A stretch of 64,000 bases of DNA from an uncultured Caryophanales bacterium (lineage in GTDB: Bacteria; Bacillota_I; Bacilli_A; RFN20; CAG-826): the NCBI GenBank assembly GCA_946612115.1, contig CAMOEI010000002.1, forward strand, positions 1-64,000. The letters are read 5' to 3'. The notes below the pieces were generated by a model. It saw only the letters and a program-made list of their open reading frames with translations, was not told the origin of the DNA and did no database searches. Shown here in pieces: positions 27,412 to 64,000 of this stretch. The number at the start of each line of letters is the position of its first letter. The first letter of the stretch is position 1. Position numbers and translations under genes: made by a program.

Positions 27412-27426
27412 TAGGAGGAAGAATAT

Positions 27427-31472: not shown

Positions 31473-31516
31473 TTCTTCATATGCGCGTTGACCTACGCGC
31501 GAAGAAGTTTTATACT
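31473..31516 (+). promoter_or_regulatory. Promoter of the amylase/pullulanase operon with an inverted repeat on the -35
   Basis: TTGACC (31488-31493), 17 bp, TATACT (31511-31516). An inverted repeat GCGCGT-TGACCT-ACGCGC (31483-31500) centres on the -35 box, with outer arms TTCTTC (31473-31478) and GAAGAA (31501-31506). A repressor bound there would block polymerase. AAAGGAG then precedes the ATG at 31559. Confidence 0.7.
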
Positions 31517-31558
31517 AATAGTAAGTATACTATTCACCCTTTTAAAAGGAGAGCCCTT

Positions 31559-34500
31559 ATGAGAAAGAAATTTTTTGTTCCTTTTATTCTCGCGTGCGTG
31601 ACGCTTTCGTCATGCTCGGGTAATTTAGTTGCTGTTAGTGGAAAGGCCCCGGCTGATAGTTTTACTTTAGAGCTCGAACCAACATCTTCAATCGCTGTTG
31701 GCGAATCTAAAACTTTAGTCCTTGGTGTCAATCCTGTTGAAGGTGCTGAACTTGGTGATGTTAAAGTCACTTGGGTCAATACCGACAACTCCATTCTTTC
31801 CGTTAGTGATTCAGATTCGACTGAACTCATCATTACCGGATTAGAAAGTGGAACTTCAACTATTACCGCTATCGTCGATGGTTCATTACAAGCCGCTAGC
31901 TGTAGAGTTACAGTTAATGGTAGTGGAAGCATCGATCCATCTATCGTTGTTAGTGATATCACTCTTAGCGATTCAACCAAAACATTCGATTATGTCGAAG
32001 GTGGAAATAACTCCTTCCCATTAATTGCTACTGTTCACTGTACACCTCAAACTGCGTCAGTCACAGTCAACTGGTATAGCACAGTCAAGTCTGTTGCTAC
32101 TGTTACTTCTAGAGGTAACCAAGCTGTTGTTAATGTTCTTGGTCCTGGAGAAACTAACATTGTCGCTAGCTATGGTTCAATTTTCGCAAGTTGTAAATTA
32201 AGCGTTAATAACGCAAGTGATCCTGCAACTGTTTCTGTTAGCTTAAATAAAACAACCTTAAGTCTTGAAGAAGGTGAAAGCGAAACATTAGTTGCAACAA
32301 CAAAAGGTAACGTCCAAATGACTAGATGGCAATCTGATCATCCAGAATTTGCTAGCGTTGATCAAGCTGGTAAAGTTACCGCCGTTAGTGCTGGTACTGC
32401 CACTATTAGCGTGACCGTTAGTGATGGAGATCAAATCAAGACCGCAACTTGTATTGTTAATGTCAAACCAACTGGACAAGCAAGTGAATATGAGGCTCAA
32501 CTTGCAACATGGAGTAAGAAAGGACACATTTATTTCCACTACTTAAGAGAACATGCCGATTACGATAACTGGGCGTTATGGATTTGGCAATCATTCCCAA
32601 GAAGCTTAGAGGGCAGCTTATGGGGTGCAAACGCAAGTCACTTCTCAGAAACAACTCCTATTAAACCTGAAAACATTCAAACATTTGGATACATGAAAAA
32701 ATCCGAATGTGGTGGAGAAGGTAGTGATATATATAGCGATGAATACGGAAGAATTATCGATGTCGATTTATTAGCAGACCCAATTAAAGGTGGTAAAACA
32801 GGTAATGATTCACCACTTGTTAGTAACTGGGAAAAACTCATGAAGACTGATATCGGTTTCTTAGTTGTCGATCAAACCAAGATGACTGGTGAAACCATGT
32901 GGACCTCTGATGGATCTGGAGAAACCTTCATCAAAAAACTCGGAACATATTTAACCGAGGGTAAAGAAAGTTACTTACACGTTTACTGTGTTGAAGGTAA
33001 CGTTAGCAATTACACCACTAGTAGTGGTAAACAAGTGGTTAATAATCCAACCCTTGAACCAAACACTAATGGTAAATATAGAAGTAAAGATGACACAACT
33101 TTATTAACTAGAGATGATTATGGAGCAGGAGTTGCAACCTCAACTTCCTTCAAAGAAGATCGTCCAGGTGTTGGTTATCAAATCTTTGTTCCATCTTACG
33201 CTGATAGTGATGGAGACGGATTTGGCGATTTAAGAGGTATCATCAACAAACTCGATTACATTAAAAATGATGTTGGAGCGGAAGTCTTATGGCTCACTCC
33301 AATTCAAGAATCCAATAGCTATCACGGCTATGATGTTACTGATTACTACAAGATCGATAGCAGATTCGGAACGATTGAAGACTATCAAGAACTCATTTAC
33401 AAAGCTCATAAACTTGGAATGAAAGTCTTGATGGATATGGTTATTAACCATACTTCAAAGAGTAACGTCTTATTTAAGAAATCTGAAGCCGCTGTTGAAG
33501 AAGTCATTAACGGAAAGACTATTTCCTACCGTGATATGTATATTTGGAAATATAAAGATGACGATGTGATGGTCTGGGATCAAACCGGAAAGAGCACAAC
33601 AGTCGGACTAGATAACTTTGTTAGCAAGAAAGTTACTGATAAAGATTGCTCTGCTCAATGGTTCCAAGATGGCACAAGTGATTACTACTACTTCGGTAAA
33701 TTCGGTAGTGGTATGGCGGAACTTAACTATAACTGTCAAGCTACTAGAGACTATATGACCGATATGTGTAAATATTGGTTAAGCTTCGGCTTAGATGGCT
33801 TCCGTCTTGATGCGATTAAACACATCTACTTATTAGGTGAACTTAACCCAGATCTTAAGACTTTAATTTCTGGTCACGATGTGACTTACGATGTTGGCTT
33901 TAAGACTTACTGGAATGAAGAAATGGGCAAAGAAGACACTGTTCCAAATGATTACTCCTATGATAGAGACATGAACGTCTTATTCTGGAAACAATTTGCT
34001 GGATCGATTAAAGCTTCTTATCCAAATTGTTTCTTAGTCGGTGAAAACTTCGATGGTTGGAACGAAAGAATGGCTCCATTCTATAAATCAATGGATTCTC
34101 AATTTGATTTCTCCACCTACTATCACTTAAACGAATTAAAAGAAGAAAGTATTGCTTACGATGTTGGTACTTCATTAAACGAATACGCGAAATACCGTAG
34201 TGATCTCATTAATGGCGCTTATACATCTAACCACGACGTTGCTAGAATGCTCAACCACGCGGCCGCTCACGATGATAGTGTTAATTCTAAATATTCTGGA
34301 GGAGACGGCATCCATCACAAAGAGATTACCTTAGAGAATACGATGGGTGGACCTGGACGTAATGTTGAATACGCTAATGATATGGCAAGATATTACGCAG
34401 CGATGACCATTCTCACTCCTGGAGTTAGCTGGATCTATTACGGAGATGAAATCGGAATGTCTGGTAATATCGCTGATAAGATGCCAGATAGTCAAGGAAG

Positions 34501-34954
34501 AGTCTTTGATGATCACGGCAATAACATCGATAGATGGTATCGTCAACCAATGAAATGGGATAACGAAAAAGGTGGTCCAAACGGCACGGTTGATTATATC
34601 TTCGGCGGTATTGAAGTCCTTTGGGATAAATATAACAAGAACGAATTACAAACTGTTGATGAACAAAAACTCGCCGCTGGATCAATGCTCAATTACTTCA
34701 AAGCACTTTGTGCAGTGAAAAATAATGATCGTTATCCAACATATGGTTTCATTTCCGGAGCCGGAACATTCTCTGGAGATCAAACCGTGAAATTTGATGT
34801 TTCCGATGGTTCAAGAAATGTCACCGTCTTCATCAACAATAGTAGCAGCGCAAAAGGCTTCTCAATGCAAGGATATTCCTTACTAGGCTGCTCACAAGGT
34901 GGCAGCGCTAATAGCTGCCCAGCCCATGGCTTTGTTGTCATGGTGAAAAACTAA
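31559..34954 (+). CDS. Surface GH13 glucanase lipoprotein with three Big_2 domains and a CBM41-like domain
   Basis: 1131 residues starting at the ATG at 31559 (Shine-Dalgarno AAAGGAG; the frame upstream to 31481 overlaps the promoter). Order: lipoprotein signal (LSSC), three Big_2 Ig domains (about 30-310), a pullulanase-associated CBM41-like domain with IYFHYLREHADYDNWALWIW (about 325-470), then a GH13 domain. The catalytic triad is D751 (GFRLDAIKH), E829 (VGEN) and D893 (TSNHD). The signature VMDMVINHTS-type strand is present as MDMVINHTS. The substrate specificity may be alpha-amylase or neopullulanase. It leads a five-gene operon ending at 44562. Confidence 0.9.
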   Translation: MRKKFFVPFILACVTLSSCSGNLVAVSGKAPADSFTLELEPTSSIAVGESKTLVLGVNPVEGAELGDVKVTWVNTDNSILSVSDSDSTELIITGLESGTSTITAIVDGSLQAASCRVTVNGSGSIDPSIVVSDITLSDSTKTFDYVEGGNNSFPLIATVHCTPQTASVTVNWYSTVKSVATVTSRGNQAVVNVLGPGETNIVASYGSIFASCKLSVNNASDPATVSVSLNKTTLSLEEGESETLVATTKGNVQMTRWQSDHPEFASVDQAGKVTAVSAGTATISVTVSDGDQIKTATCIVNVKPTGQASEYEAQLATWSKKGHIYFHYLREHADYDNWALWIWQSFPRSLEGSLWGANASHFSETTPIKPENIQTFGYMKKSECGGEGSDIYSDEYGRIIDVDLLADPIKGGKTGNDSPLVSNWEKLMKTDIGFLVVDQTKMTGETMWTSDGSGETFIKKLGTYLTEGKESYLHVYCVEGNVSNYTTSSGKQVVNNPTLEPNTNGKYRSKDDTTLLTRDDYGAGVATSTSFKEDRPGVGYQIFVPSYADSDGDGFGDLRGIINKLDYIKNDVGAEVLWLTPIQESNSYHGYDVTDYYKIDSRFGTIEDYQELIYKAHKLGMKVLMDMVINHTSKSNVLFKKSEAAVEEVINGKTISYRDMYIWKYKDDDVMVWDQTGKSTTVGLDNFVSKKVTDKDCSAQWFQDGTSDYYYFGKFGSGMAELNYNCQATRDYMTDMCKYWLSFGLDGFRLDAIKHIYLLGELNPDLKTLISGHDVTYDVGFKTYWNEEMGKEDTVPNDYSYDRDMNVLFWKQFAGSIKASYPNCFLVGENFDGWNERMAPFYKSMDSQFDFSTYYHLNELKEESIAYDVGTSLNEYAKYRSDLINGAYTSNHDVARMLNHAAAHDDSVNSKYSGGDGIHHKEITLENTMGGPGRNVEYANDMARYYAAMTILTPGVSWIYYGDEIGMSGNIADKMPDSQGRVFDDHGNNIDRWYRQPMKWDNEKGGPNGTVDYIFGGIEVLWDKYNKNELQTVDEQKLAAGSMLNYFKALCAVKNNDRYPTYGFISGAGTFSGDQTVKFDVSDGSRNVTVFINNSSSAKGFSMQGYSLLGCSQGGSANSCPAHGFVVMVKN

Positions 34955-39914: not shown

Positions 39915-42900
39915 ATGAAAAAGATTAAATTTCTCATTCCTCTCGCCTTATTTGGTTTGATGCTTTCTAGCTGCGACGCTAATGAGCTGAGAAAGAATTA
40001 TTCTCAATCCGATTTAGATATCGATACTCCTTGGGTAGATTATTATCTACCTGCAACTGGAGTAGAGTTCGCTGAAGGAGAAGAATTCCTCCAATTAAAT
40101 AAAGGTGAAACACATAATTATAACTATTCATTATCACCTAGTGGAGCAACTTCAAACTCTCTAGTTTGGAGTAGTGATGAACAAAGTGTGGCAACAGTTG
40201 ATAATGGTTTACTTACCGCCGTTGGAGCAGGTGAGGCAACTATTAAAGTCAGTTCTCCAGAAGAGATGTTTGATCCTGTTGAACTCAGCGTTGTTGTTAA
40301 TGTCCCATTAGAAGATTTCTCAGTCTCTGTTCCTGATAAATTTGACTGGGAAGTCAGTCAACCATTAGAAGTTACTTATACCCCTAACGATACAACTTAT
40401 CGCGATTTAGTATTTTCTATTGAAAATCCAAGCGAAGAAGATGTCGTTAGTGTTGATAATGAAGGAGTAATTCATACTACTAGAGCTAATGGCACCGCTA
40501 CTTTAAGAGTCCATAGTGACTATTTAGGTGCGGAAAAAGATAAAACATATCCAATCGTTGTTCAAAACGTTCCAATCAACTCTTTAGCGGTTGATTATGA
40601 AGAAGGTCAAGAACACACCAATTATTTAGAAGTTGATGAAGCAATGAAATTTAAATATGTCATCACTCCAGATAATGCTTCTGACTATGTCAGATATGGT
40701 GTCAAATTTGTTTCTAGTGATGAAAGCGTTTTAACTATTGACCCTGCAACTGGAGTTGCTAGAGGTGTTAACCCTGGTACCGCTAATGTTTCAGTAGTCT
40801 GTAAAGATACAACTTCTACTCCAAAAGAAATTACTGTTTATCAATCTTCAGTTACTTCTTTAAGCGAAGTTCATTTAGATGATGAAGTTTTATCTAATGA
40901 TGAAACTAATCCTCTTACTACAAGATTACATTTTAATGCAAATTACACTAATGCAGCGGGAAGTGGAACACTTAATGATAAAGTTCCAAATAGATGGACA
41001 GTTAGTTATTCTTCTGATGACGAAGAAATCGTCACAGTTGATAATACTGGATTAGTTGAAGCTAAAAACCCAGGAACCGCTAATGTTAAAGTTACAGTTA
41101 GTGATGGAGAACACACTCTTGAACAAGAAAAAGAAGTCAGTGTTTACATGGTTTCTAAATCTGTGAAGATTAATTCTTCATCCTCTGTTTTATATACTGA
41201 TACTTCATTAGAATTAACCGCGAGTATCACTCCTACTAATGTTAGTGATGATACAATCGCCTGGTCAGTTGAACCTGCTGGAGTGGTTACTTTAGAACCT
41301 AACGGTAAATCTGTCACTGTTACAAGTGTTGAAGATGAACTCGATGAACCAGCAGTGGTCACAATTACCGCAAGTAATGAAGCTGCTGCTCATGGTGGAG
41401 TGACTGGTTCATTTGAATTAACTGTTAAAGAAAGAGCGGTTAATTTTGAAGCAGGTACTATGTACCTCGTTGGTAATAGAGCCTTTAATACTGGCACTTC
41501 CGCAAGTGGACATACTAGCTGGTATACCGCAGATGGTAGCAACCCAAGAGCGGCAAGATATGCTTATACCTTTGCTACTGAATGTTACGATCCAGATATA
41601 ACCAACCAATATAAGGGAACATTACATTTACATGAAGGCGATGAATTTAGATTCTTTGTTGGAAGTGATTATTACGTCCCATTATTTGAAAGTGGCATTG
41701 ATGATCAAGGCAACCCATGGACTGCCTATCACATCCAACACACTGATGGAGCGTTCATTACTGAAAAATTGTCGTTAAAAGACGCTACTAATGCTGAAAC
41801 TAATATCGTTGTTAACGAAACTGGTTATTATGACTTCTACGCAAAGCGTTACGCTAAAGCGGATAGCAATGACTGGTATCAATTATATATTTGTGAAACA
41901 CCTGCTATCGAAGTCGAGATTGCAAATGCATCTATGGGACTTGATGATACCTTCACAATCAAACCAGTTAATGTTATTGGTGAAGTTAGTTACAACGTTA
42001 CTGAAAATACCGCTAATGCTGAATTCGAAGATGGCGTTATTACCGCCACAGGAGATGAAGGTAGAGTGGTAGTTTCCGTTAACGATAGTAGAGAAGGCAC
42101 ACCAGTTGTTGTTACTGTTAATATCGTTGATGGTGCAAGTGGAGTTTCTAAAACGATTTATGTCAATGGAAACGGACACGCCAATAAAGATAGTGCTAAA
42201 TTATTCGCACGCACTTGGGCAGAAAGTAGTTCAACAATCTTACCAAGAGACAATGAATTTACATTAGTCACTGGACAAAGCATTGTTTATTCAGTTTCTA
42301 TTCCAGTTGAACATAATATGATTGTTATTGTTAGAGAAAGCCCATTAGCGACACATCTAGTTTGGGAAGGCGAATATTTCTGGGGACAAACCCAAGACTT
42401 AAATATCCCAACTGATGGTAAAGATATGTTTGTCTCTACTGGTTATAAGACTGTTGGAGAAGGCGAAGAGGCCAAAGAATTCCTCTCTGGAGTTTGGGAT
42501 GTCTTTGATCCGAATACAGTTTACGAAGAAGAAAAAGTCTTTGAAAAAGATCGCCCATATATTATCGGTTCTAGTGATTATTCAACAGGAACCTCAACTA
42601 TTGGCACAGGTTGGACTGTAGCGCAATCTTACAAAGTCACTGAGACTGAAGATGATCCAAGTTATTACACACAATTTGTCGCAGATATCACATTCCGTGA
42701 AAACGATGAATGGAGAGGCTTATACGGAAACGGCACTTCACTCGTTGATGGTAATCAAGGATGGATTAGTAATGTTCAATCAACTGAAGGTGCCTTTAGT
42801 GGAACCGATCCAGAAATGACATTGTTAGCGAATAGCAACATTAAGGTTAACAAACCTGGAACATATCACATTTGTATCAAAGTCTTACTCAACGATGGTG

Positions 42901-44552
42901 GATGGCAGATTTATGTTAAATCTAACGAAGAACCAACACCTGTTGAAGGTCCATTTGTTCAATATCATCGTGGAGAAGAATGGATTAAAGAAGATTTAGT
43001 TGAAAATCCAGGCAATCCAAACGAATACATGGGTTCTCTTGAGCTCAACGCTAATGAAGAATTTGTCTTCTTTGTTGGTGAAGAAGATTGGAGACACTAC
43101 GAGAATAAGAAAGCAGGTTCTGCAGATGAAGTTGTTGCCGGTATAGTTGACCCAACTAATTTCATGGCGAGTGTTGCAGGAACATATACCTTCTATGTTG
43201 AAAAAGCAGAACACGGACAAGTATTTATTGCATATACCGCTCCAGTAGTCCCACCAGTGGAACCAGATTTACATACTTTGTATTTCACAAACAATAAGGG
43301 ATTTAGTGGAGACGCATACGTTTACGCATTTAAGGGAAGTGTGGCAAACGCCGAATTCCCAGGTGTGGCAATGACTTATGTTGAGAAAGATCAATTTAAC
43401 GCAGATGTTTATAGCGCATCAATTGATTACGCTTTATATGACACTGTTATCTTCTCGATGGTTGATGGTGGCACAAAGATTCAAACAAAGGATATCGCTA
43501 TTTCTGAATTTGGTAGTGAACATGATGGAGCGTATTATCTAGATACCGCTGATGAGCAAGGTCATTATGATTGTGGCTTCTATAAGTTCGAACATTACGA
43601 GCCAACTCCAGAAGAACCAGAATTAACAAGCATCACATTAAGTGGAACATATAAAATAACCTTTGAACTTAATGAAGAGTTCACGCATGAAGGTTTAGTG
43701 GTCACCGCTCATTATTCTCAAGAGAAAGCTGATGAAGTAGTTACTTCTAGTGCAACATTCTCTAATCCAGATATGACAACCGCTGGTAAAAAGACCATCA
43801 CTGTTAGCTACTCTGATACATATGGAGAAGCAAGTACCACCTATGAAATCACTGTTAATGGTAGTGAACCAGTTGATCCAGATGAAATTACAATTTATTT
43901 CACTAATAACTGGAAATGGACAGCTGTTAATGCTTATGTTTTCAAAGGCGGAACTCCAAAAACTGCTTGGCCAGGAGAAGCAATGACTAAAGTCGGCAGA
44001 AACAGTGACTTAGATGACATCTATAGTTTCACAGTGGATAAATCTGAATTTGATACATTAATTATCAATAACGGTTTAGGCGGAGACGCCAATCAAACAG
44101 TGGATATTGATTTAACTAATGTTGAAACTAACCAAGCTTACTATTGTAGTGGAAGAGAAACGCCACTAGATGACACTACAAAAGTCACAGTTGGAACATG
44201 GACATTCTCTGCTGACGCCATCATTGACGAAGCAGATGTTATGAAGATCTATGTAACAAATAGTCAATACTGGAACAATTTGAAAGTTTATATTTTCAAT
44301 AATGAAACCAAAGCCGAAAAAGCTGGTTGGCCAGGCGTTGAATTAAAATATGAATATACCAATGATCAAAGTCAAGGTGTCTATTCATTCGAAATCTATA
44401 CCGTTAATTACGACGCTTTCATTGTCAATGGTAGCGGCGGACAAACTATCGATATCTTGCTAAGTTATCTTACTGGTGGTAATAACTCGGTTTGGATTAA
44501 AGATACCAAAGTCGGCGACAAATACGAAGTTGGATATTGGAAAAAATCTTAA
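39915..44552 (+). CDS. Giant Ig-repeat lipoprotein with three C-terminal CBM26 starch-binding modules
   Basis: 1545 residues, no catalytic domain seen. A lipoprotein signal (LSSC) is followed by about five to six Ig-like Big_2 domains (to ~510), then several beta-rich modules beginning with patterns such as MYLVGNRAFNTG, IYVNGNGHANKD, PYIIGSSDYSTG and FVQYHRGEEW (510-1110). Three modules match CBM26, with their start patterns at residues about 1120 (LYFTNNKGFSGDAYVYAF), 1325 (IYFTNNWKW with AWPGEAM) and 1442 (IYVTNSQYWNN with GWPGVEL). A Big_3-like domain (TSITLSGTYKITFELNEEF) lies between the first two. It probably presents starch to the enzymes of the operon. It is the last gene before the terminator at 44562. 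Confidence 0.88.
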   Translation: MKKIKFLIPLALFGLMLSSCDANELRKNYSQSDLDIDTPWVDYYLPATGVEFAEGEEFLQLNKGETHNYNYSLSPSGATSNSLVWSSDEQSVATVDNGLLTAVGAGEATIKVSSPEEMFDPVELSVVVNVPLEDFSVSVPDKFDWEVSQPLEVTYTPNDTTYRDLVFSIENPSEEDVVSVDNEGVIHTTRANGTATLRVHSDYLGAEKDKTYPIVVQNVPINSLAVDYEEGQEHTNYLEVDEAMKFKYVITPDNASDYVRYGVKFVSSDESVLTIDPATGVARGVNPGTANVSVVCKDTTSTPKEITVYQSSVTSLSEVHLDDEVLSNDETNPLTTRLHFNANYTNAAGSGTLNDKVPNRWTVSYSSDDEEIVTVDNTGLVEAKNPGTANVKVTVSDGEHTLEQEKEVSVYMVSKSVKINSSSSVLYTDTSLELTASITPTNVSDDTIAWSVEPAGVVTLEPNGKSVTVTSVEDELDEPAVVTITASNEAAAHGGVTGSFELTVKERAVNFEAGTMYLVGNRAFNTGTSASGHTSWYTADGSNPRAARYAYTFATECYDPDITNQYKGTLHLHEGDEFRFFVGSDYYVPLFESGIDDQGNPWTAYHIQHTDGAFITEKLSLKDATNAETNIVVNETGYYDFYAKRYAKADSNDWYQLYICETPAIEVEIANASMGLDDTFTIKPVNVIGEVSYNVTENTANAEFEDGVITATGDEGRVVVSVNDSREGTPVVVTVNIVDGASGVSKTIYVNGNGHANKDSAKLFARTWAESSSTILPRDNEFTLVTGQSIVYSVSIPVEHNMIVIVRESPLATHLVWEGEYFWGQTQDLNIPTDGKDMFVSTGYKTVGEGEEAKEFLSGVWDVFDPNTVYEEEKVFEKDRPYIIGSSDYSTGTSTIGTGWTVAQSYKVTETEDDPSYYTQFVADITFRENDEWRGLYGNGTSLVDGNQGWISNVQSTEGAFSGTDPEMTLLANSNIKVNKPGTYHICIKVLLNDGGWQIYVKSNEEPTPVEGPFVQYHRGEEWIKEDLVENPGNPNEYMGSLELNANEEFVFFVGEEDWRHYENKKAGSADEVVAGIVDPTNFMASVAGTYTFYVEKAEHGQVFIAYTAPVVPPVEPDLHTLYFTNNKGFSGDAYVYAFKGSVANAEFPGVAMTYVEKDQFNADVYSASIDYALYDTVIFSMVDGGTKIQTKDIAISEFGSEHDGAYYLDTADEQGHYDCGFYKFEHYEPTPEEPELTSITLSGTYKITFELNEEFTHEGLVVTAHYSQEKADEVVTSSATFSNPDMTTAGKKTITVSYSDTYGEASTTYEITVNGSEPVDPDEITIYFTNNWKWTAVNAYVFKGGTPKTAWPGEAMTKVGRNSDLDDIYSFTVDKSEFDTLIINNGLGGDANQTVDIDLTNVETNQAYYCSGRETPLDDTTKVTVGTWTFSADAIIDEADVMKIYVTNSQYWNNLKVYIFNNETKAEKAGWPGVELKYEYTNDQSQGVYSFEIYTVNYDAFIVNGSGGQTIDILLSYLTGGNNSVWIKDTKVGDKYEVGYWKKS

Positions 44553-49497: not shown

Positions 49498-49604
49498 ATA
49501 AATAACAAAAAAAATTTAGGAAATTTTTAAAAAAATCCGAAAAATCGCCCTATTAAATAATGAGAGGAATCGTTTGTCTCTCAAGTATTAAGGAGGCCAT
49601 CTAT

Positions 49605-50623: not shown

Positions 50624-51877
50624 ATGAAAAAGAAATCAATCTTTCTTTTGGCCTCTGTTGCAATGTCTGCCGCATTAGTCGGTGGTACTTTTGCTGCATG
50701 GGCTGTTACTGACAATGCTGACCCTTTTAGCATTAAAGTCAGTACAGGTAACGTCACAACAGACGGAACTCAATATGTCACTCTTGAATGGGGTGCGTCT
50801 CAAAAGATGGGTAACGTCTCAAATCTTGAATTAGGAACAGTTCGTAAGGCAGGTGTTCTTGATTTAAGAGCAAACACAAATAGTAAAGATGATCCTGATG
50901 GAACATTAAGCTTTGCTATTACTGGCGGAGAACACATCTCTTCTAAACTCCATGTCGATGTTTATAAGACAGAGTTAGCAGCTGATAGCGATGGAGTTAT
51001 TTCTCAAGCTACCATTGACGCTGCAGTTGCTGCTGATAAGAAATTAAGTTTCACCAATGGCAAAGTTGTCGTTCCAGTTACTAAAAACGACAATGCGAAT
51101 ATCTTTACCGTTGCAGTCTACTTAGACAGTGAGACAACCGCCGCTCAATACGATTCAATGAATGGTGAACAAGCATACGTTGAATTTGATTGGGGACCAG
51201 GTAGTGATGTTTTAACTAAAGCAACTTATTACGCTAAAGGATTCAATGGCACACCTAATGCATATGCATGGTCAACAAGTCAAGCTGGTACACAAGAGAA
51301 TGCAAAATTCCCAGGTGTTGCAATGACCGAAGTAGTTCCAGGTTCTGGAGTTTACACCGTTGAAATCCCAGCAACATTTGCTAATGTCATCTTCTCTTAC
51401 GACGATGATTATAGCGACGAAACCAATAGACAACAATCTGGCGACTTAGTTATCTCCAGTGTCTTCGTCAATCAAAAAGACATGTTTGCATATGATGCGA
51501 CAGTTGAAGGCGTTAAAGGTGTTATTTCTAAATACGACGCAAGCGAAGTCAAAGTTCCAACATATTATTTAGTTGGTGATTTCACCGATGATGATTGGGC
51601 ACAACTTGATCAATACAAGATGACCGTTGTTCCAGGCAAGACTGATGAATATCAAATCACTGGTGTCGCTTTATTAGCTGGCGCAAAGATTAAGGTTGTT
51701 GAATCATTAAGTAATACTTGGTATAACAACGCGACAACATGGGATAATTGTGGATTTACTATTTCCGATGATGAAGATAGAAATATCGTTGTCACCGCTG
51801 CTGGTACATATACAATCCACTTCGACTTGACTCCAGGTGGAGCAGGTAACTATATCGACCTTACCAAAACTGCATAA
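50624..51877 (+). CDS. TasA/camelysin-like SipW-substrate protein with CBM26 starch-binding module
   Basis: 417 residues. The N-terminus (SAALVGGTFAAWAVTDNADP) matches the SipW-cognate signal class found on TasA/CalY fibre proteins, where cleavage precedes the first strand. A TasA-like beta-rich domain (about 28-190) follows. Then comes a CBM26 module with YYAKGFNGTPNAYAWST and KFPGVAM (200-290). The last module (about 308-417) has TYYLVGDFTDDDWAQ and resembles SusE/F-type starch-binding domains. No lipobox, LPXTG or TM anchor is seen. AAAGGA stands upstream. The gene directly precedes a SipW-type signal peptidase. Confidence 0.82.
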   Translation: MKKKSIFLLASVAMSAALVGGTFAAWAVTDNADPFSIKVSTGNVTTDGTQYVTLEWGASQKMGNVSNLELGTVRKAGVLDLRANTNSKDDPDGTLSFAITGGEHISSKLHVDVYKTELAADSDGVISQATIDAAVAADKKLSFTNGKVVVPVTKNDNANIFTVAVYLDSETTAAQYDSMNGEQAYVEFDWGPGSDVLTKATYYAKGFNGTPNAYAWSTSQAGTQENAKFPGVAMTEVVPGSGVYTVEIPATFANVIFSYDDDYSDETNRQQSGDLVISSVFVNQKDMFAYDATVEGVKGVISKYDASEVKVPTYYLVGDFTDDDWAQLDQYKMTVVPGKTDEYQITGVALLAGAKIKVVESLSNTWYNNATTWDNCGFTISDDEDRNIVVTAAGTYTIHFDLTPGGAGNYIDLTKTA

Positions 51878-51889
51878 TTATCAAATTAT

Positions 51890-51920
51890 TGGGATGGGCC
51901 CATTCATTTGGGCCCTCCCA
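51890..51920 (+). other. GC-rich hairpin between the fibre-protein gene and the peptidase gene
   Basis: TGGGA-T-GGGCCC, 8-nt loop, GGGCCC-TCCCA: 11 GC-rich pairs in AT-rich DNA without a T tail. It is better explained as an mRNA stabiliser or processing site than as a terminator. It would keep the first cistron's mRNA and reduce the peptidase. Confidence 0.6.
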
Positions 51921-51936
51921 TGCTCTATTGACTGCT

Positions 51937-52980
51937 ATGAAAAACGAAAATCTTGGTAAAAATAAAAAGACCACTAAATGGAAGATTATCGACATAGTTA
52001 GTTGGATCCTTGTTATCGCGTTATTTGCAACATCATTAACTTTGTTAATTTCTAGAAAAGCTAATGGCAGACTAGACATCTTTGGTTCTAGATATGACAC
52101 AGTTCTCACAACTTCAATGGCGTCTCGAAATGAAGAGCATGCAGAGTTTTTAAAGGGAACGAGTCAAATCCAAAAGATGGATGTTGTTAGAAGCAAAACC
52201 GTTAACAAAAAAACAAAATTAAAAGTTAAAGATGTCGTGCTGTTTAATAATCCATATATTGGAGTGGACATGCACAGAATCGTCGATATTAAAGTCGAAC
52301 AACAAGATGAGATTTATCTTAAGAAGACCACAGTCAGTGAAAGTGGTGGGATTAATCTTTTAGATGGTAATGCAGCTATCTATACGAACACCATTCACTT
52401 CACTCAAGCAGAGTTTGATATCTATTCTAAAGAACAACTCTTCTCAAATAAGTATGTTTTCTCCATTGATAAAGCTGAACAAGCTTATTCCCATGAAGTT
52501 AAACAAATTGGTGAGAAATATTGCCACACGATTACATTAACTAAGGCGAACGCGAAAGCTTGTGAAATCACAATGGTTCCTAAAGGTGGATATGATTACT
52601 CCCTTGAGACCATCAAAGAAATTAGAATCAACTCTACTTATGGAGAACTTAAACTTAATGGAAAAGATTTCACTGTTAGCGAAGATGAAAACATTCTTCA
52701 ATGTATTAGGAATACATCATATCTCTATGAGATAAGAGGGGACGCTGCTAAAACAAGCGATGGATGGTTCTCAATTGATAAAATCTACTCTAGAGTAGAT
52801 AAGGTCATCCCAAAAGCGGGATATATGACAAGATTCTTTACATCGAGTCCAGGAATCATCTTACTTATTGGACTTGGTCTTATCATCTTAGCGGGAGACT
52901 TCTTAATCGACTTCTTAGATAAGAAAGACAAAAAACAATCTGAAGAAAAGGAAACTAAAGAAACAAATGAGAAAAACTAA
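51937..52980 (+). CDS. sipW: SipW-type (ER-type, Ser-His) signal peptidase I
   Basis: 347 residues from the ATG at 51937 (the frame from 51889 spans the hairpin). TM helices lie near residues 18-38 and 306-327. The peptidase boxes are TTSM (Ser60), DVVLFNN, DMHRIVDI (His113 in place of the bacterial Lys, as in SipW) and IRGDAAKTSDG (GD268-269 and D275). About 140 residues separate the His box from the GD box, far more than usual. No Shine-Dalgarno is visible. It is predicted to cleave the flanking SipW-class proteins at 50624 and 52967. Confidence 0.82.
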   Translation: MKNENLGKNKKTTKWKIIDIVSWILVIALFATSLTLLISRKANGRLDIFGSRYDTVLTTSMASRNEEHAEFLKGTSQIQKMDVVRSKTVNKKTKLKVKDVVLFNNPYIGVDMHRIVDIKVEQQDEIYLKKTTVSESGGINLLDGNAAIYTNTIHFTQAEFDIYSKEQLFSNKYVFSIDKAEQAYSHEVKQIGEKYCHTITLTKANAKACEITMVPKGGYDYSLETIKEIRINSTYGELKLNGKDFTVSEDENILQCIRNTSYLYEIRGDAAKTSDGWFSIDKIYSRVDKVIPKAGYMTRFFTSSPGIILLIGLGLIILAGDFLIDFLDKKDKKQSEEKETKETNEKN

Positions 52981-54709
52981 GATCTTTATGTTATCTAGTT
53001 TATCTATTATGGGCGTTAGTTTGCTCGTTGGCTCAACATTTGCCAAATGGGCTGTCACCGATAACGCCGATCCTTTTGTCATGACTGTTTCAGTTGGAGG
53101 TTTACCAGTTGAAGCTGGTTATTATCTCACATTTGAAAGCGATAATTATTCTCCTAGCGGTTCTCATGCGATTAAATTTGATAGTAGTGACGAAGATAAA
53201 GCAAAGAAACTCAATGTCACTATCGCGGATAACACTAGTGCGAGAATTTATTATTTCAATGGTAATACCTATGAGAAAGATAAAACCCCATTCCCATTCA
53301 CTATGGGAGAAACTCACGGCTTTGTCTCTTTAAGTAGTGATACATTGACTTTTAACACAGATAGAAGTGGAAATGTTTTCTCCTTCTATTTAACTAATGA
53401 AGACAAGCTTTATGTTGATGATGAAACATATAAAGATTTTGATGGTTACTATGTGACATATCAAGATGAAGCTTACGCCTTCAAATCATCTAATAAACTG
53501 ACATCATTTGAAAGTGGAGATAACCTCGCTACTGGTAGTTTTGATTTTGAGACCTCTAAGAGCTTTAAGGTTGAACATTTTAATGGAAGAAGAGGAATTA
53601 TCTCATCTCCATTTAAACAAGCCGCTAATTACCCTAATTTCTTATCTTCATCTTATGATGATGAATTGATGACTATTAAAGACGCTGCGACATATAAATT
53701 GATGGTCTCTAGAGGAGATAATCATGTTTATTTCGCTAATGAGTCACTAAGTAGTCTAAGTGGTTATTACATTCTTTACGCTCCAGATTATAGCTATAAG
53801 ACCGGCGTGAGAATGGAAGACATCACTGGAGTAAATATCGCTGAAGCATCTATTGATGTCGCTGCGAACACCACAATCAAGATTAAGTATGTTGACGCTG
53901 TTAATGATGTCGTCAGTGGTAATTATAAACAAGCAGGAACTCCTTCTTATTTAGACACCCTAGATCAAAGTGAAACATTAACATTTAATAAAGCAGATAA
54001 ATATGACTTCTATCTAAAGGATAGTGGAGAAATCTACACTGCGATTGGTAGTTATCAAACTGTTTATTTAGACGCAGGTGGAACTTCACTTTGGGAAAAA
54101 CCAATTCAAGGTAAGATGATTTACTTTACCAATAACCAAAATTGGTCTGAAGTTAAGATCCACATGTGGAAAGATGGTGGAGAAACAACTTCTTGGCCAG
54201 GTGAAGATATGACTTATCTCTGTGATAATGATTACGGACAAGGTATTTATTATTACGAAGTTCCATCTCAATATGACAAAGTCATATTCAATAATGGTAG
54301 TGGAACTCAAACAGTGGATACGCCTATTTCTTCAGTTAGCGATGGAACGTTATTCTATCCAGATGGAACGGAAGACAGCAAATATAAAGTTAGTAACATT
54401 ACATACAAATCTCCAAGAGTGGGACCATTATTCTACGCTTGGGTTTGGGAATACGGAAAAGATGGTAGATGGGTTGAATTGACCGCCAGCGCAACTAAGG
54501 TTGGTAAATATGAAATGACCGTTCATAGTTATGAAGATATGTTAGTCTTCGCTAGATGCGCTTGGGCACCAACACAAAGTGATGGCAGTGAACTTAACGA
54601 TTCTACTTATGTCTGGAACAAGACTATTGATACCTCAATTCCTGGAGACGGATATTGCTACACAATGACCGACTGGAATGAAGGCGATTGGAGTTCTAAT
54701 CCAATTTAG
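52967..54709 (+). CDS. Second SipW-substrate protein with CBM26 module
   Basis: 580 residues. The signal region (LLVGSTFAKWAVTDNADPFV) closely matches that of the 50624 product, with the shared AVTDNADPF. Three repeated beta-rich segments follow (about 45-380), each with a YYL/YYV start and a strand such as GYYVTYQDEAYAF. A CBM26 module (MIYFTNNQNWSEVKIHMW; SWPGEDM) occupies 382-465, and a last module with FYAWVWEYGKDGRWVEL completes the protein. The start overlaps the peptidase stop by 14 bp, which couples their translation. Confidence 0.8.
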   Translation: MRKTKIFMLSSLSIMGVSLLVGSTFAKWAVTDNADPFVMTVSVGGLPVEAGYYLTFESDNYSPSGSHAIKFDSSDEDKAKKLNVTIADNTSARIYYFNGNTYEKDKTPFPFTMGETHGFVSLSSDTLTFNTDRSGNVFSFYLTNEDKLYVDDETYKDFDGYYVTYQDEAYAFKSSNKLTSFESGDNLATGSFDFETSKSFKVEHFNGRRGIISSPFKQAANYPNFLSSSYDDELMTIKDAATYKLMVSRGDNHVYFANESLSSLSGYYILYAPDYSYKTGVRMEDITGVNIAEASIDVAANTTIKIKYVDAVNDVVSGNYKQAGTPSYLDTLDQSETLTFNKADKYDFYLKDSGEIYTAIGSYQTVYLDAGGTSLWEKPIQGKMIYFTNNQNWSEVKIHMWKDGGETTSWPGEDMTYLCDNDYGQGIYYYEVPSQYDKVIFNNGSGTQTVDTPISSVSDGTLFYPDGTEDSKYKVSNITYKSPRVGPLFYAWVWEYGKDGRWVELTASATKVGKYEMTVHSYEDMLVFARCAWAPTQSDGSELNDSTYVWNKTIDTSIPGDGYCYTMTDWNEGDWSSNPI

Positions 54710-54723
54710 AAAGGAGTAAAGAA

Positions 54724-55731
54724 GTGAAAAAGAAATTTATTTTTCCAATTTTAACTTTAACTCTTTTCGGTGTGTCTTTATCAGGTTGTCGAAAAGAAGG
54801 AGGTAAAAAACCAACGCCTCCTACTCCACCAGTAGTAGAATTTACCATTACTTTAGATAAATCTAACCTTTCACTAAAAGAAGGAGAACAATCTCAATTA
54901 GTGGCCACTACAAGTGAACCTGCCACAGTTACTTGGTCAACTTCTAGTGAAGAGTTTGCAACTGTTACTCAAGAAGGTCTAGTATATGCGGTTAAAGAAG
55001 GTAATGCGACTATTACCGCAAGTGCGAATAATAAGTCCGCTACTTGTCTTGTAACAATTACAAAAGAAGTCGTTCCTCCAGGACCTGGAGAATTTACCAT
55101 TACTTTAGATTATGCTCGATTACAACTAAAAGTTGGGGAGCATCAACAAATCACTGCAACTACAAGCGAACCTGCTACTGTCTCATGGACAAGTTCAAAA
55201 GAAAACGTTGCTTCTGTTGTTGATGGCTATATCACTGCCTTAGAAGAAGGAACAACCACAATTACTGCAAGTGCAAATGGTGAATCTGCAACCTGTGAAG
55301 TTGAAGTCAAACCAGTTACTCCTCCAACTCCAGTTGATACCCCAATTACTTTAGCGTGGGGCACAAAAACTTTAGTGGATATTGATGATTTACAAAACGG
55401 AGAAGAAAAAGGACCATATGTTGTTGGTTTATTAGCAACCCAATCTTCTAGTGAACTCTTTAGTGGTTCTTTCTCAGTTAGTCTTACCAGTGCAGAAACT
55501 GGTGCATATAAGATTATTGATTATCTCTATGTCAATGTTTATGAATCCGCAACTAAAGAAGGAAAAGTTTTAGAAATTAATGACACTACAGAGAAGTACG
55601 CAGAAGCAGTAGTTTCTGTAAGTGGTAACGAAGAAAAGAAACTCTATTTCTTCATCGGAATAAAACAAGTTCCAGCCTACATTTTCTCTGAATTTGAAGG
55701 ATACGTTTCTCTTGAAGTAGATTGGAGTTAG
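54724..55731 (+). CDS. Lipoprotein with two Big_2 domains (GTG start)
   Basis: 335 residues with a GTG start, supported by AAAGGAG 6-7 bp upstream. A lipoprotein signal (LSGC) and a proline/threonine linker (PTPPTPP) are followed by two Big_2 domains (about 38-115 and 124-200) with the pattern VTWSTSSEEFATVTQEG. The C-terminal 120 residues (SSELFSGSFSVSLTSAETGAY; FFIGIKQVPAYIF) match no family I know, though the length and edges suggest another beta domain. It closes the SipW operon. Confidence 0.78.
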   Translation: MKKKFIFPILTLTLFGVSLSGCRKEGGKKPTPPTPPVVEFTITLDKSNLSLKEGEQSQLVATTSEPATVTWSTSSEEFATVTQEGLVYAVKEGNATITASANNKSATCLVTITKEVVPPGPGEFTITLDYARLQLKVGEHQQITATTSEPATVSWTSSKENVASVVDGYITALEEGTTTITASANGESATCEVEVKPVTPPTPVDTPITLAWGTKTLVDIDDLQNGEEKGPYVVGLLATQSSSELFSGSFSVSLTSAETGAYKIIDYLYVNVYESATKEGKVLEINDTTEKYAEAVVSVSGNEEKKLYFFIGIKQVPAYIFSEFEGYVSLEVDWS

Positions 55732-55753: not shown

Positions 55754-55777
55754 GGCCACTTTGAAGTGGTCTTTTTT
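55754..55777 (+). terminator. Intrinsic terminator of the SipW operon
   Basis: GGCCACT (55754-55760), TTGA loop, AGTGGTC (55765-55771) and six T. Confidence 0.88.
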
Positions 55778-59396: not shown

Positions 59397-60827
59397 ATGA
59401 ATAAGAAATTAGGAATATTACTTTCAGTGAGCTCTCTTCCTGGAAATCATGGGATTGGGGATTTTGGAGATTCTTGCTATAAATTCATTGATTGGCTTAA
59501 GAAAAACCAATACACCTATTGGCAGGTTTTACCTCTTAACCCATTAGGGCCAGGATATTCTCCATATATGTCTACTTGCTCTAATGCTTTAGAGTATCGG
59601 TATATTTCATTAGATTATCTAGTCAAAGAAGGATATTTAAAATCCGCTCCTAGATTTCAAAAGGATAGCGAGGCTGTTAACTTCTTTGAAGTTGGAGAAT
59701 ATAAAAAAGCGCTACTTTGGAAAGCGTTTAAAAAGTTCTATAAAAAACATCCGGAAACTCTACATAAATTTAAATTTAGACAACCATGGGTTAGTAGTTA
59801 CGCAACATTTGAAGTGTTCAAGTGGCATAATGACAACAAGCAGTGGAATGAATGGGGTCCTTGGTATCGAGATTATTACTTCACCCATAGCAATCCTCCA
59901 AAGCACTTAATGGAAGAAATTAACTTTGTAATTTATCTTCAATATGTCGCTTTAAAACAGTGGAAGAAAGTTCTTAGATATGCGAAGAAAAAAGGAATTA
60001 CATTAATTTGTGATATGCCTTTCTATGTTGGTTTTGATGGAGTGGAATGCTGGCTACATAGAGATCAATTCTCCATTGGACTAGATAACAAATTATTCGA
60101 AGTTGGAGGAGTGGGACCTGACGCTTTCTCTGATGTTGGTCAATTATGGGGAACCCCAATTTATAACTTCGCCAAAATGAAGGAAGATAACTATAAGTTA
60201 TTAATTGATAGAATTGGTTATTTAATGAACTTATGTGATTATTTACGTATCGACCACTTTAGAGCGTTTGATACTTACTATGTCATCCCTGCTGATAAAG
60301 ATGATGCGAGAATCGGAGAATGGAAACTAGGTCCAGGTGCAGATTTCTTTAATGAACTATATAAGAAATATCCAAAGATTAACTTAATTGCGGAAGATTT
60401 AGGGGATTTAAGACCTGAAGTTTTGAAGCTTAGAGATCAATTTAATCTCCCAGGAATGTTTATCTCTGAATTCACTATTTTTGATTTGAAAAACGAATCC
60501 ACGAATAGACAATTAGTCTATCCAGGCACTCATGATAACGAGACTTTATATGGCTGGTATTTAAACTTAAAAGAAGAACAACTTCAATTCATTGAAAATA
60601 GATTAAATCATCATGAAAGAAGTACCTTATATGATGCGATTGTTAAATACATCTACACGATTCCGTCATTAATGACTATCTTCCAACTACAAGACATTTT
60701 GAAGTTAGATAATAAAGCGAGGATGAACTACCCAGGTACAGTGGGTTCTCCTAACTGGATGTGGAAGGTTAAAGACTTCTCTTGGATGAAAGAAGTTAAA
60801 TACCCAGACTACAAGTGGTTTGAGTAA
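59397..60827 (+). CDS. malQ: 4-alpha-glucanotransferase (amylomaltase, GH77)
   Basis: Disproportionates maltodextrins inside the cell, moving glucan chains between acceptors and releasing glucose. 476 residues, no signal peptide. Family segments are LSVSSLPGNHGIGDFG and YWQVLPLNPLGPGYSPYMS, here split: LPGNHGIGDFG and WQVLPLNPLGPGYSPY. The catalytic residues fit D286 (LRIDHFRAF), E333 (IAEDLG) and D380 (GTHDNET). It works with GlgP and GlgB encoded downstream on imported maltodextrins. It has its own promoter and terminator. Confidence 0.95.
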   Translation: MNKKLGILLSVSSLPGNHGIGDFGDSCYKFIDWLKKNQYTYWQVLPLNPLGPGYSPYMSTCSNALEYRYISLDYLVKEGYLKSAPRFQKDSEAVNFFEVGEYKKALLWKAFKKFYKKHPETLHKFKFRQPWVSSYATFEVFKWHNDNKQWNEWGPWYRDYYFTHSNPPKHLMEEINFVIYLQYVALKQWKKVLRYAKKKGITLICDMPFYVGFDGVECWLHRDQFSIGLDNKLFEVGGVGPDAFSDVGQLWGTPIYNFAKMKEDNYKLLIDRIGYLMNLCDYLRIDHFRAFDTYYVIPADKDDARIGEWKLGPGADFFNELYKKYPKINLIAEDLGDLRPEVLKLRDQFNLPGMFISEFTIFDLKNESTNRQLVYPGTHDNETLYGWYLNLKEEQLQFIENRLNHHERSTLYDAIVKYIYTIPSLMTIFQLQDILKLDNKARMNYPGTVGSPNWMWKVKDFSWMKEVKYPDYKWFE

Positions 60828-61648: not shown

Positions 61649-63460
61649 ATGGCATACGGATTAATATACGATTACTTAATGGGCCAAACAATCGAAGCAT
61701 ACACCTACTTCGGCGCTCATTTCACAAAACAAAACGGCAAAGATGGAGTGGTTTTCAGACTCTACGCTCCAATGGCCAGTGATGTCTCAGTTATCGGTGA
61801 TTTTAATAACTGGAGCATGTACGAACACAAGATGAATAAAATCGATGATTCTGGAGTCTGGGAATTATTTATTCCAGGCTTGAGCAATTATCAAGCATAT
61901 AAATTCCATTTCAAAAATGCGAAAGGCGAATATGTCGATCGTGTTGACCCATGCGCATTCTTTAGTGAGATTGCTCCATCAACATGTTCTAGATTATTTG
62001 ACTATCGCAATTTTATTTGGCATGACGAAAAATTCTTATCTCAAAGAGATAGAAACTTTGATCGTCCAATGAGCATCTATGAGATGCATGTTGGTTCTTG
62101 GCTTAAAAAAGACCGTTTCTCTTCTTATGAAGAGGTTGCGGATGTCTTAATTCCTTATATTCAAGGAATGGGCTTTACACACGTTGAATTTATGCCGATA
62201 GTGGCCCACCCATTTACTGGTAGCTGGGGATATCAAGCAACTGGATTTTATTCAGTTGATCCTAGATATGGAAATCCACATCAATTAATGTCTTTTATCG
62301 ATAGGCTTCACCAAGCCGGTATTGGAGTTATTTTAGATTTCGCTCCTGTACATTTCGCTAGCGACCCATGGGCTCTCGCGGAATATGATGGAAGCTGTTT
62401 ATTTGAATATTCTAATGAACACAGAGTCTCTCCTTGGGGATCTTTACAATTCGATTTAGGAAAAGACCCGGTTAGAAGCTTTTTGATGAGCGCGATGAAT
62501 TACTTTGTCACTGAATACCACATTGATGGTATTAGAATTGACGCGGTTAGTAATATCATCTTCTATAATGGTGATAAGACCAAAGGAAGAAATGAAGGAG
62601 CGATTGAGTTTATTAAAAGACTTAATGCAAAAATGCATATCGCTCATGACAAAGTCATGATGATCGCGGAAGATAGCTCTGATTTCCCAGGAGTTACTAA
62701 ACCAACCGAACAAGACGGCTTAGGATTTGACTATAAATGGGATTTAGGCTGGATGAATGATACTTTAAAGTATTACGCCTTAGATCCAGTTTATAAAAAG
62801 TATGACCATAATAAATTAACTTTCTCAATGGCTTATTTCTATAGCGATAATTTCTTACTTCCATTCTCTCACGATGAAGTCGTCCACGGAAAAGGAACAC
62901 TTCTTAATAAGATGTGGGGAGATTATTATCAGAAGTTTGCCTTATTAAGAAATTTAATTACATATCAATTCGCTCACCCAGGAAAGAAACTTAATTTCAT
63001 GGGTAATGAATTCGCTAGTTTTGATGAGTGGAATGAAAATAAATCTCTCCCATGGGATTTAAAGCGTTTCCCTGCTCATGATAGCATCTCAAGATTATAT
63101 AAAGACCTCAACCTCATTTATCGAGCGCATAAAGCAATGTATGTTCAAGAATATAATCCAAACACCTTTAAATGGTTGATTGTCGATAATAAAAATGATT
63201 CAGTGTTTGCATTCACTCGTAGAGTGGATGATGAAGTAATGATCTTTGTCTTTAATATGACTCCAAATTATTACGACAACTTTGGAATTCCTGTGGAAGT
63301 CGAAGGCGAATACACTGAAATCTTTAATAGCGATAAAGATATCTATGGTGGAGATAACCAATATAATGGTCTACCTATTGGTAGCTTCGGTGGATATTTC
63401 ACCATTAAACTTCCTTCTTTAGGGGCCTGTATCTTTAAGCTCACTAAAAAAGCAAAATAA
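61649..63460 (+). CDS. glgB: 1,4-alpha-glucan branching enzyme (GH13)
   Basis: Makes alpha-1,6 branches during glycogen synthesis. 603 residues: an N-terminal CBM48-like domain with VVFRLYAPMASDVSVIGDFNNW (about 30-115; shown in part as DVSVIGDFNNW), then a GH13 barrel with YEMHVGSW, FMPIVAHPFTGSWGYQ and the catalytic residues D298 (GIRIDAVS), E341 (IAEDSS) and D409 (SHDEVVHGKG). The family's extra N1 domain is absent, as in other short GlgB. A later in-frame ATG at 61679 is possible. It is followed 34 bp on by glgP. Confidence 0.95.
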   Translation: MAYGLIYDYLMGQTIEAYTYFGAHFTKQNGKDGVVFRLYAPMASDVSVIGDFNNWSMYEHKMNKIDDSGVWELFIPGLSNYQAYKFHFKNAKGEYVDRVDPCAFFSEIAPSTCSRLFDYRNFIWHDEKFLSQRDRNFDRPMSIYEMHVGSWLKKDRFSSYEEVADVLIPYIQGMGFTHVEFMPIVAHPFTGSWGYQATGFYSVDPRYGNPHQLMSFIDRLHQAGIGVILDFAPVHFASDPWALAEYDGSCLFEYSNEHRVSPWGSLQFDLGKDPVRSFLMSAMNYFVTEYHIDGIRIDAVSNIIFYNGDKTKGRNEGAIEFIKRLNAKMHIAHDKVMMIAEDSSDFPGVTKPTEQDGLGFDYKWDLGWMNDTLKYYALDPVYKKYDHNKLTFSMAYFYSDNFLLPFSHDEVVHGKGTLLNKMWGDYYQKFALLRNLITYQFAHPGKKLNFMGNEFASFDEWNENKSLPWDLKRFPAHDSISRLYKDLNLIYRAHKAMYVQEYNPNTFKWLIVDNKNDSVFAFTRRVDDEVMIFVFNMTPNYYDNFGIPVEVEGEYTEIFNSDKDIYGGDNQYNGLPIGSFGGYFTIKLPSLGACIFKLTKKAK

Positions 63461-63494: not shown

Positions 63495-64000
63495 ATGTTT
63501 TCTTCAAAAGCAAATTTTAAAAGAGAATTTCAAGCTCGTTTACTTGAACGATATGGTGTTGAAGTGGCGACGAGCTGTCCGAATGAACAATACACAATTT
63601 TAGGAGAGATGGTTCGTGACTATGCGAACATCAATCTTAAAAATACCCACGAGCAAAGTGCGGTTAAGGGAAAAAGAACATTAATCTATTTCTCAATGGA
63701 ATTTTTAATTGGACGTTTACTCAATAATAATATTCAAAATTTAGACATTTATAACGTTGTCAAAGAAGGCTTAGACGACTTAGGTATTGATTTAAATACT
63801 TTAGAAGATGAAGAAAGTGACGCAGGTCTTGGTAATGGTGGATTAGGTCGACTTGCCGCCTGTTTCCTTGATTCAATCGCTTCTTTAGGCTATTTAGGAC
63901 ATGGCAACTGTATCCGTTATCAATATGGCTTCTTCCGTCAAAAGATTGCAGACGGCAAACAAAAAGAACTTCCAGACCAATGGTTAACAAACGGTAATGT
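63495..64000 (+). CDS. glgP: Glycogen/maltodextrin phosphorylase (GT35), truncated by the window end
   Basis: Releases glucose-1-phosphate from alpha-1,4-glucans using a pyridoxal phosphate cofactor. The start at 63495 has AAAGGGG 10-18 bp upstream. The 168 visible residues show YFSMEFLIGRLL, the glycine-rich DAGLGNGGLGRLAACFLDS and IRYQYGFFRQKI, all strongly conserved in GT35. The rest, including the PLP lysine, lies beyond 64000. It shares its direction with glgB and is probably co-transcribed with it. Confidence 0.93.
   Translation, partial: MFSSKANFKREFQARLLERYGVEVATSCPNEQYTILGEMVRDYANINLKNTHEQSAVKGKRTLIYFSMEFLIGRLLNNNIQNLDIYNVVKEGLDDLGIDLNTLEDEESDAGLGNGGLGRLAACFLDSIASLGYLGHGNCIRYQYGFFRQKIADGKQKELPDQWLTNGN

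Follow-up and report, generated by a model that had tools for sequence, protein, structure and literature searches.

Among the closest described counterparts of the system presented here is the TasA-SipW-TapA operon of Bacillus subtilis, in which a SipW-type signal peptidase is encoded together with its substrates, the subunit is a jelly roll, and a partner protein has a near-identical N-terminus. The N-termini of TapA and TasA are AFHDI and AFNDI, and TapA can donate a strand (PMC10151520). A comparable block of four co-directional genes (P0001 to P0004 in the open reading frame [ORF] list) lies at positions 50624 to 55731 of the window, a 64,000-nucleotide stretch of contig CAMOEI010000002.1 (assembly GCA_946612115.1) from an uncultured Caryophanales bacterium, a gut inhabitant of rumen type. 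This block probably encodes a starch-capture fibre assembled by donor-strand exchange, whose subunits and end piece both bear starch modules. P0003 relates to P0001 as TapA does to TasA: the N-termini are almost the same, and the proteins differ in the rest. Unlike the B. subtilis operon, the block includes CBM26 and SusE/F-type modules and an acceptor-type lipoprotein, lies in a starch locus, and shows no sequence match to TasA or M73.

Other known assemblies share parts of this plan. The archaeal bundling pili (7ueg) and Pyrodictium cannulae (7uii and 9h8b) provide the best fold matches of a domain in P0004, but these are archaeal structures, and we know of no starch modules or SipW locus associated with either. 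Type 1 and Csu chaperone-usher pili are also among the best fold matches of this domain (FimG and CsuA/B) and follow the same base-shaft-tip logic; Pfam scans of the neighbouring genes turned up no chaperone or usher, and no search aimed at them was made. In type 1 pili, the tip protein FimH accepts a strand, whereas the proposed P0003 tip would donate one. The Bacteroides Sus system likewise captures starch with multiple surface modules, and the C-terminal domain of P0001 resembles SusE and SusF; these are outer-membrane lipoproteins arranged around a porin, not fibres. The Ruminococcus bromii amylosome supplies both the closest solved CBM26 and a precedent for CBM26-based starch adherence at a Gram-positive surface (PMC9112005). 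However, it is built with cohesin-dockerin pairs, and Pfam found no such modules in the four proteins. Judged from titles and the openings of abstracts, no paper was found that links SipW/TasA-type or donor-strand fibres with starch-binding modules.

A preliminary description of positions 50624 to 54709 had treated the region as a three-gene unit, with a SipW-type peptidase encoded between two TasA-like, starch-binding proteins. This was partly confirmed, with corrections. The three co-directional ORFs are real, but the unit has one more gene, P0004, whose lipoprotein product with its acceptor-type domain had been overlooked, as had the SusE-type module of P0001, the hairpin after the shaft gene, and the recurrence of the theme in other genera.

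Signal peptidase and locus-matched N-termini

The catalytic residues of P0002 are S76, H129, and D285 (ORF numbering), a Ser-His-Asp and not a Ser-Lys arrangement, and the S, HR, and GDA boxes are invariant in all nine aligned proteins (the window protein and eight relatives). Human SEC11A (E value, 9e-5) and SEC11C (E value, 0.001) were the best solved relatives of the peptidase profile (A8). The NCBIfam SipW model NF046067 matched P0002 with an E value of 3.7e-12 and 46.2 bits, short of its equivalog cut-off of 190 bits. Judged by its sequence, P0002 is a SipW/Sec11-type enzyme outside the narrow Bacillus SipW equivalog. The catalytic residues and the SEC11 similarity bear out the Ser/His boxes of SipW reported earlier for the middle enzyme and support a SipW-type processing route, in which cleavage itself is a prediction.

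In the peptidases of the window and of a sister locus, some 110 extra residues separate the His box from the Asp box; the other seven aligned proteins have no such insert. A weak DUF6727 match touches the insert region of the sister peptidase. In the sister SipW (L093:4382-5665), the tail after the second transmembrane segment resembles a degenerate CBM26 by eye, with no Pfam match at an E value of 0.1.

A SipW-like signal and mature start are common to both flanking proteins (AWAVTDNADPF at residues 25 to 35 of P0001 and KWAVTDNADPF at residues 27 to 37 of P0003), and the common WAVTDNADPF agrees with the shared SipW-class signal of the preliminary description. If these N-termini serve as donor strands, both partners must fit one groove, and shaft and end piece should therefore match locus by locus. 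From profile scores and neighbouring genes, we divided the SipW-like loci into 20 class I loci (window included) and 26 others for comparison. Twelve class I loci entered a permutation test, with segment starts placed by hand; the other eight (L059, L060, L062, L067, L071, L085, L166, and L171) were excluded because a partner or an N-terminus was absent or incomplete. Compared over their first 20 mature residues, shaft and end piece had a mean local score of 45.8 within the 12 loci and 19.3 between them. None of 20,000 permutations gave as good a within-locus match, and the protein's own partner was the best in 11 of 12 rows. Control segments from the same loci gave p values of 0.64 (signal peptides), 0.09 (residues 21 to 42), and 0.40 (residues 43 to 64). 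With one locus per genus (8 loci), the match of the first 20 residues had a p value of 5e-5, but residues 21 to 42 reached 0.018. Eight loci encode a third, TasA-like SipW-cluster protein, here called "plain," which lacks that N-terminus (p value, 0.56). Locus-matched N-termini are what a shared donor strand would predict, and from there we infer a fibre. The same comparison provides a computational test of donor-strand pairing applicable to other SipW loci.

The main alternative is that P0001 and P0003 are separate, non-polymerising starch-binding proteins, secreted or held at the surface, which share a SipW-type signal and whose common mature N-terminus is part of SipW recognition. The starch modules and SipW are well supported and polymerisation is a prediction, the shared segment directly follows the cleavage region, and SipW and its substrates could also co-vary. 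However, the match spans about 20 mature residues, leaves out the signal peptide, and does not occur in the plain protein of the same loci. If SipW processes the plain protein as well, this last point argues against a segment that serves SipW recognition alone. The associated domain also has, in its model, the fold of donor-strand filaments. We consider this alternative unlikely.

Starch modules and a TasA-like fold

As the preliminary description had proposed, both flanking proteins contain CBM26 modules, with scores of 35.7 bits in P0001 (residues 205 to 259) and 55.6 bits in P0003 (residues 385 to 451) against a Pfam cut-off of 28.1. The solved modules nearest to that of P0003 are from R. 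bromii Amy16 (E value, 1.1e-17) and Amy10. Among the Y/W/WPG aromatics, which we take to be the ligand residues, P0001 keeps Y214 and W216 and has F229 in place of the W of WPG, while P0003 keeps W401 and W410 and has H399 in place of Y. The C-terminal SusF_SusE domain of P0001 scored 28.7 bits (cut-off, 27.5), and its model, of moderate local confidence, matched SusF (4fe9) over 98 residues with a VIA Z score of 11.0 and a root-mean-square deviation (rmsd) of 2.6. Z scores for SusE/SusF overall were 10 to 11.

P0003 has a different architecture. Its signal and first ~16 mature residues are followed by three tandem repeats of about 105 residues, the CBM26, and a C-terminal module. Profile comparison linked repeats 1 and 3 (probability, 94.4) and repeats 2 and 3 (96.1), with repeats 1 and 2 at only 13.5. 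The TasA-like profile matched P0003 in the first 16 mature residues only (hhalign probability, 90.5; 16 columns) and gave no match to the repeats. P0003 was accordingly rejected as a second TasA-like protein. Only P0001 has a TasA-like domain, and P0003 has just a donor-like N-terminus.

P0004 is a predicted lipoprotein (lipobox LSGC, residues 19 to 22) with Big_2 spacers and no SipW-type donor segment. Its C-terminal domain was modelled from an alignment with four relatives and compared with 350,542 chains by Foldseek. Eight of the best 10 rows were filament or tube subunits: the archaeal bundling pili (7ueg; E value, 4.3e-4), two cannula chains, a related tube, FimG twice, the TasA fibre, and a Csu pilin. 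Comparison with the TasA fibre (8aur) gave a Foldseek probability of 1.00 and a TMq of 0.59, and VIA aligned 133 of 136 residues with a Z score of 7.2 and an rmsd of 3.8. As modelled, the domain has a TasA-like fold; we claim the fold, not membership in TasA.

Over 135 columns, hhalign showed homology between the N-terminal domain of P0001, taken without the ~20 residues at its mature start, and the C-terminal domain that P0004 shares with its counterpart in the sister (probability, 97.2; E value, 4.6e-11). This homology supports a TasA-like N-terminal domain in P0001. The structural similarity to TasA anticipated for the first protein thus holds by way of P0004, whose model matches the TasA fibre, and not through the protein's own model, which was poor (see below).

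Membership in TasA or M73 by sequence was rejected, with no support from Pfam, NCBIfam, the Protein Data Bank (PDB), or hhalign. Peptidase_M73 (PF12389) had no match in the window's own genome, nor in 12 aligned members at E values up to 10. A hhalign comparison with an M73-like set was not significant, a weak negative because the set comprised 18 ORFs from 25 loci, some just loosely M73-like; its source was the 12 of 149 genomes of the class that have PF12389, none from the window's family. Profile searches proposed earlier for CBM26 and TasA/CalY (Peptidase_M73-type) thus succeeded for the first and failed for the second. SipW genes do accompany camelysins in Bacillus cereus (PMC10151520), and the block could in principle encode camelysin/M73-like secreted proteases. 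With no M73 match and no HExxH motif in P0001 to P0004, this reading is highly improbable, and an M73-type protease was rejected.

A proposed starch-capture fibre

In the proposed fibre, SipW cleavage would expose N-terminal strands that are almost the same in P0001 and P0003. P0001 combines a proposed donor strand with a TasA-like domain as acceptor and so could polymerise as the shaft, with each subunit displaying a CBM26 and a SusE/F-type module. P0003, with a donor strand and no TasA-like domain, could just cap, closing one end only and displaying several modules there. P0004, a predicted lipoprotein with a C-terminal TasA-like domain but no SipW-type donor, could act as an acceptor alone and would fix the base of the fibre to the membrane. 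The simplest order would be membrane, P0004, many copies of P0001, and P0003, so that starch modules would line the shaft and also sit at its far end. Such a fibre would keep starch close to the amylase and to the importer for maltodextrins; MalQ, GlgB, and GlgP would act inside the cell.

Several observations weigh against such a fibre. Searches of Pfam, NCBIfam, and the PDB with the mature region of P0001 gave no sequence match to TasA or M73, and none of the solved donor-strand proteins was matched in a profile search. The model of P0001 built from two sequences was of low quality, with a mean predicted local distance difference test score (pLDDT) of 48.5, and only its C-terminal domain was matched clearly; the N-terminal domain model retrieved viral jelly rolls, and the TasA fibre was not among its match lists. 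VIA Z scores of 7 to 8 may reflect a common arrangement; integrin and other sandwiches score 6 to 7. The lipoprotein base lacks conservation: in the sister, the protein that corresponds to P0004 has a SipW-like signal and a CBM26 in place of the lipobox, which makes the base the weakest part of the model. At two loci (L058 and L165), the "end piece" carries a sandwich resembling the shaft2 protein. The SipW block is also patchy, with the peptidase in 2 of 19 listed genomes of the window's genus, and loci of genus g24 have no starch genes in the examined flank. The shaft2 domain, which comes from loci that encode a shaft2 protein alongside a plain one, gave no match to TasA-like profiles (probabilities, 0.9 and 4.0).

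A broader proposal is more tentative, and we rate it at somewhat less than an even chance: that the block represents a chaperone-free, three-part donor-strand pilus for food capture in monoderm gut bacteria. In such a pilus, the lipoprotein base would only accept, the shaft with its starch modules would both donate and accept, and the multi-module tip would only donate; each locus would have its own donor-strand code common to shaft and tip. As a Gram-positive counterpart to Sus, the arrangement would occur repeatedly across several genera within one family. If true, SipW-TasA-type filaments would be polysaccharide-capture organelles too, and not biofilm scaffolds alone, and uncultured rumen and gut Bacilli would have a starch route besides Sus or amylosomes.

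Relatives, neighbouring genes, and operon details

At 1e-15, SipW-like matches occurred in 80 of 224 genomes from the family; scores exceeded 150 bits in 18. This genome survey, suggested in the preliminary description, recovered relatives with adjacent SipW, shaft, and end-piece genes and the same theme in other genera. The TasA-like gene adjoins its SipW gene in the window and its relatives, and the architecture of P0001 (SipW-like signal, TasA-like region, and CBM26) recurs in two further genera (L170 and L176). Starch or glycogen genes were present in the examined flank of 11 of the 20 class I loci versus 2 of the 26 other SipW-like loci, counting L170 as a starch locus on its CBM26 amylase. 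A scan with malQ yielded 18 loci, only 2 of which, the sister and a horse-faeces locus, had a class I peptidase in the stretch examined. Gene layout in the sister block equals that of the rumen metagenome-assembled genome (MAG) RUG14851; the other matches were Bacilli, Bacillales, or Erysipelotrichaceae MAGs by title, and many of their names pointed to rumen, reticulum, or faeces.

These neighbourhoods bear on whether a fibre would serve feeding. A TasA-like matrix fibre could instead bind alpha-glucan made by the cell or its neighbours, for cohesion and not food capture. TasA serves the biofilm matrix (PMC9674648), and glgB and glgP adjoin the block. However, the window's own locus also has an alpha-amylase, a MalK-type ATP-binding cassette (ABC) importer, and MalQ, and in other genera the block adjoins amylase or importer genes, making a cohesion fibre improbable. 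Consistent with a starch-capture fibre, the starch-binding modules described earlier are supported and sit in a locus with amylase, importer, MalQ, GlgB, and phosphorylase (Table 1). The locus also includes a CBM48 protein.

Table 1. Positions of the four-gene block, its parts, and neighbouring starch-related genes in the window
Feature	Position	Strand	Basis
P0001, proposed shaft subunit: SipW-like signal, donor segment, TasA-like domain, CBM26, SusE/F-type domain	50624..51877	+	ORF, Pfam; 417 amino acids
Mature N-terminus/proposed donor strand of P0001 (AWAVTDNADPFSIKVST)	50696..50746	+	Permutation test versus end piece of own locus
TasA-like domain of P0001	50756..51202	+	Homology to P0004 C-terminal domain
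CBM26 of P0001	51236..51400	+	Pfam
SusE/SusF-type starch-binding domain of P0001	51569..51826	+	Pfam, fold match
Intercistronic hairpin after shaft gene, without U-tract	51890..51920	+	Folding energy, comparison of loci
P0002, SipW/Sec11-type signal peptidase	51937..52980	+	Catalytic boxes, SEC11 similarity
P0003, proposed end piece (tip): SipW-like signal, donor segment, three ~105-amino-acid repeats, CBM26, C-terminal module	52967..54709	+	ORF, Pfam, profile comparison; 580 amino acids
Proposed donor strand of P0003 (KWAVTDNADPFVMTVSV)	53045..53095	+	Profile match, permutation test
CBM26 of P0003	54119..54319	+	Pfam; solved-structure search
P0004, proposed lipoprotein base: lipobox LSGC, two Big_2 domains, C-terminal TasA-like acceptor domain	54724..55731	+	ORF, Pfam, fold model; 335 amino acids
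TasA-like domain of P0004 (modelled)	55321..55731	+	pLDDT 84.7, predicted template modelling score (pTM) 0.79; Foldseek, VIA
Terminator-like hairpin with T-run, end of proposed operon	55754..55771	+	
ABC importer permeases and MalK-like ATPase	25025..29982	+	
Alpha-amylase with Big_2 domains	31481..34954	+	
1545-amino-acid surface protein, Big_2 repeats and three CBM26	39915..44552	+	Pfam
Associated surface protein, weak X25 pullulanase-module match, C-terminal transmembrane segment	55906..57444	+	
Associated surface protein, CBM-like N-terminus by eye, C-terminal transmembrane segment	57842..59275	+	
4-Alpha-glucanotransferase (MalQ)	59397..60827	+	Pfam GH77
GlgB-like branching enzyme	61649..63460	+	
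Glycogen phosphorylase (GlgP) start, continues past window	63495..63998	+	

A 71-nucleotide stretch containing the intercistronic hairpin had a folding energy of −26.7 kcal/mol (z, −3.6). A GC-rich stem, defined as at least 7 pairs with at least 5 G-C, a criterion set after the stems had been viewed, follows the shaft gene, ahead of the gene downstream, in 13 of 15 loci; among 26 control gaps in these loci, 1 has such a stem. These stems differ in sequence in most loci and mostly lack a U-run. The hairpin likely stabilises shaft mRNA, which would give many shaft subunits per peptidase and end piece.

The ORF start of P0003 overlaps the peptidase gene by 14 bases, and P0004 begins 14 bp past P0003. 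An alternative P0002 start, the TTG at 51889, sits directly 5' of the intercistronic hairpin, making the ATG at 51937 the likelier start. This ATG has no clear Shine-Dalgarno sequence, and AAGGA/AAGGAG precedes P0001 and P0004, a pattern consistent with low peptidase expression.

The two surface proteins downstream of P0004 (55906 to 57444 and 57842 to 59275) end in a transmembrane segment and a basic tail, with sub-threshold LPXTG matches; several such genes precede malQ in many relatives. A second kind of SipW-like locus also occurs in the family (L172 to L175, L177, L178, and many of L057 to L082), encoding a SipW with an N-terminal extension, small SipW-signal proteins, and a ~600-amino-acid membrane protein. 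Several of these loci encode a lipoprotein with collagen-like stretches, and nearly all are without starch genes. Just upstream of the operon in the window, positions 49560 to 50132 encode a 190-amino-acid protein with a MuF_C phage domain.

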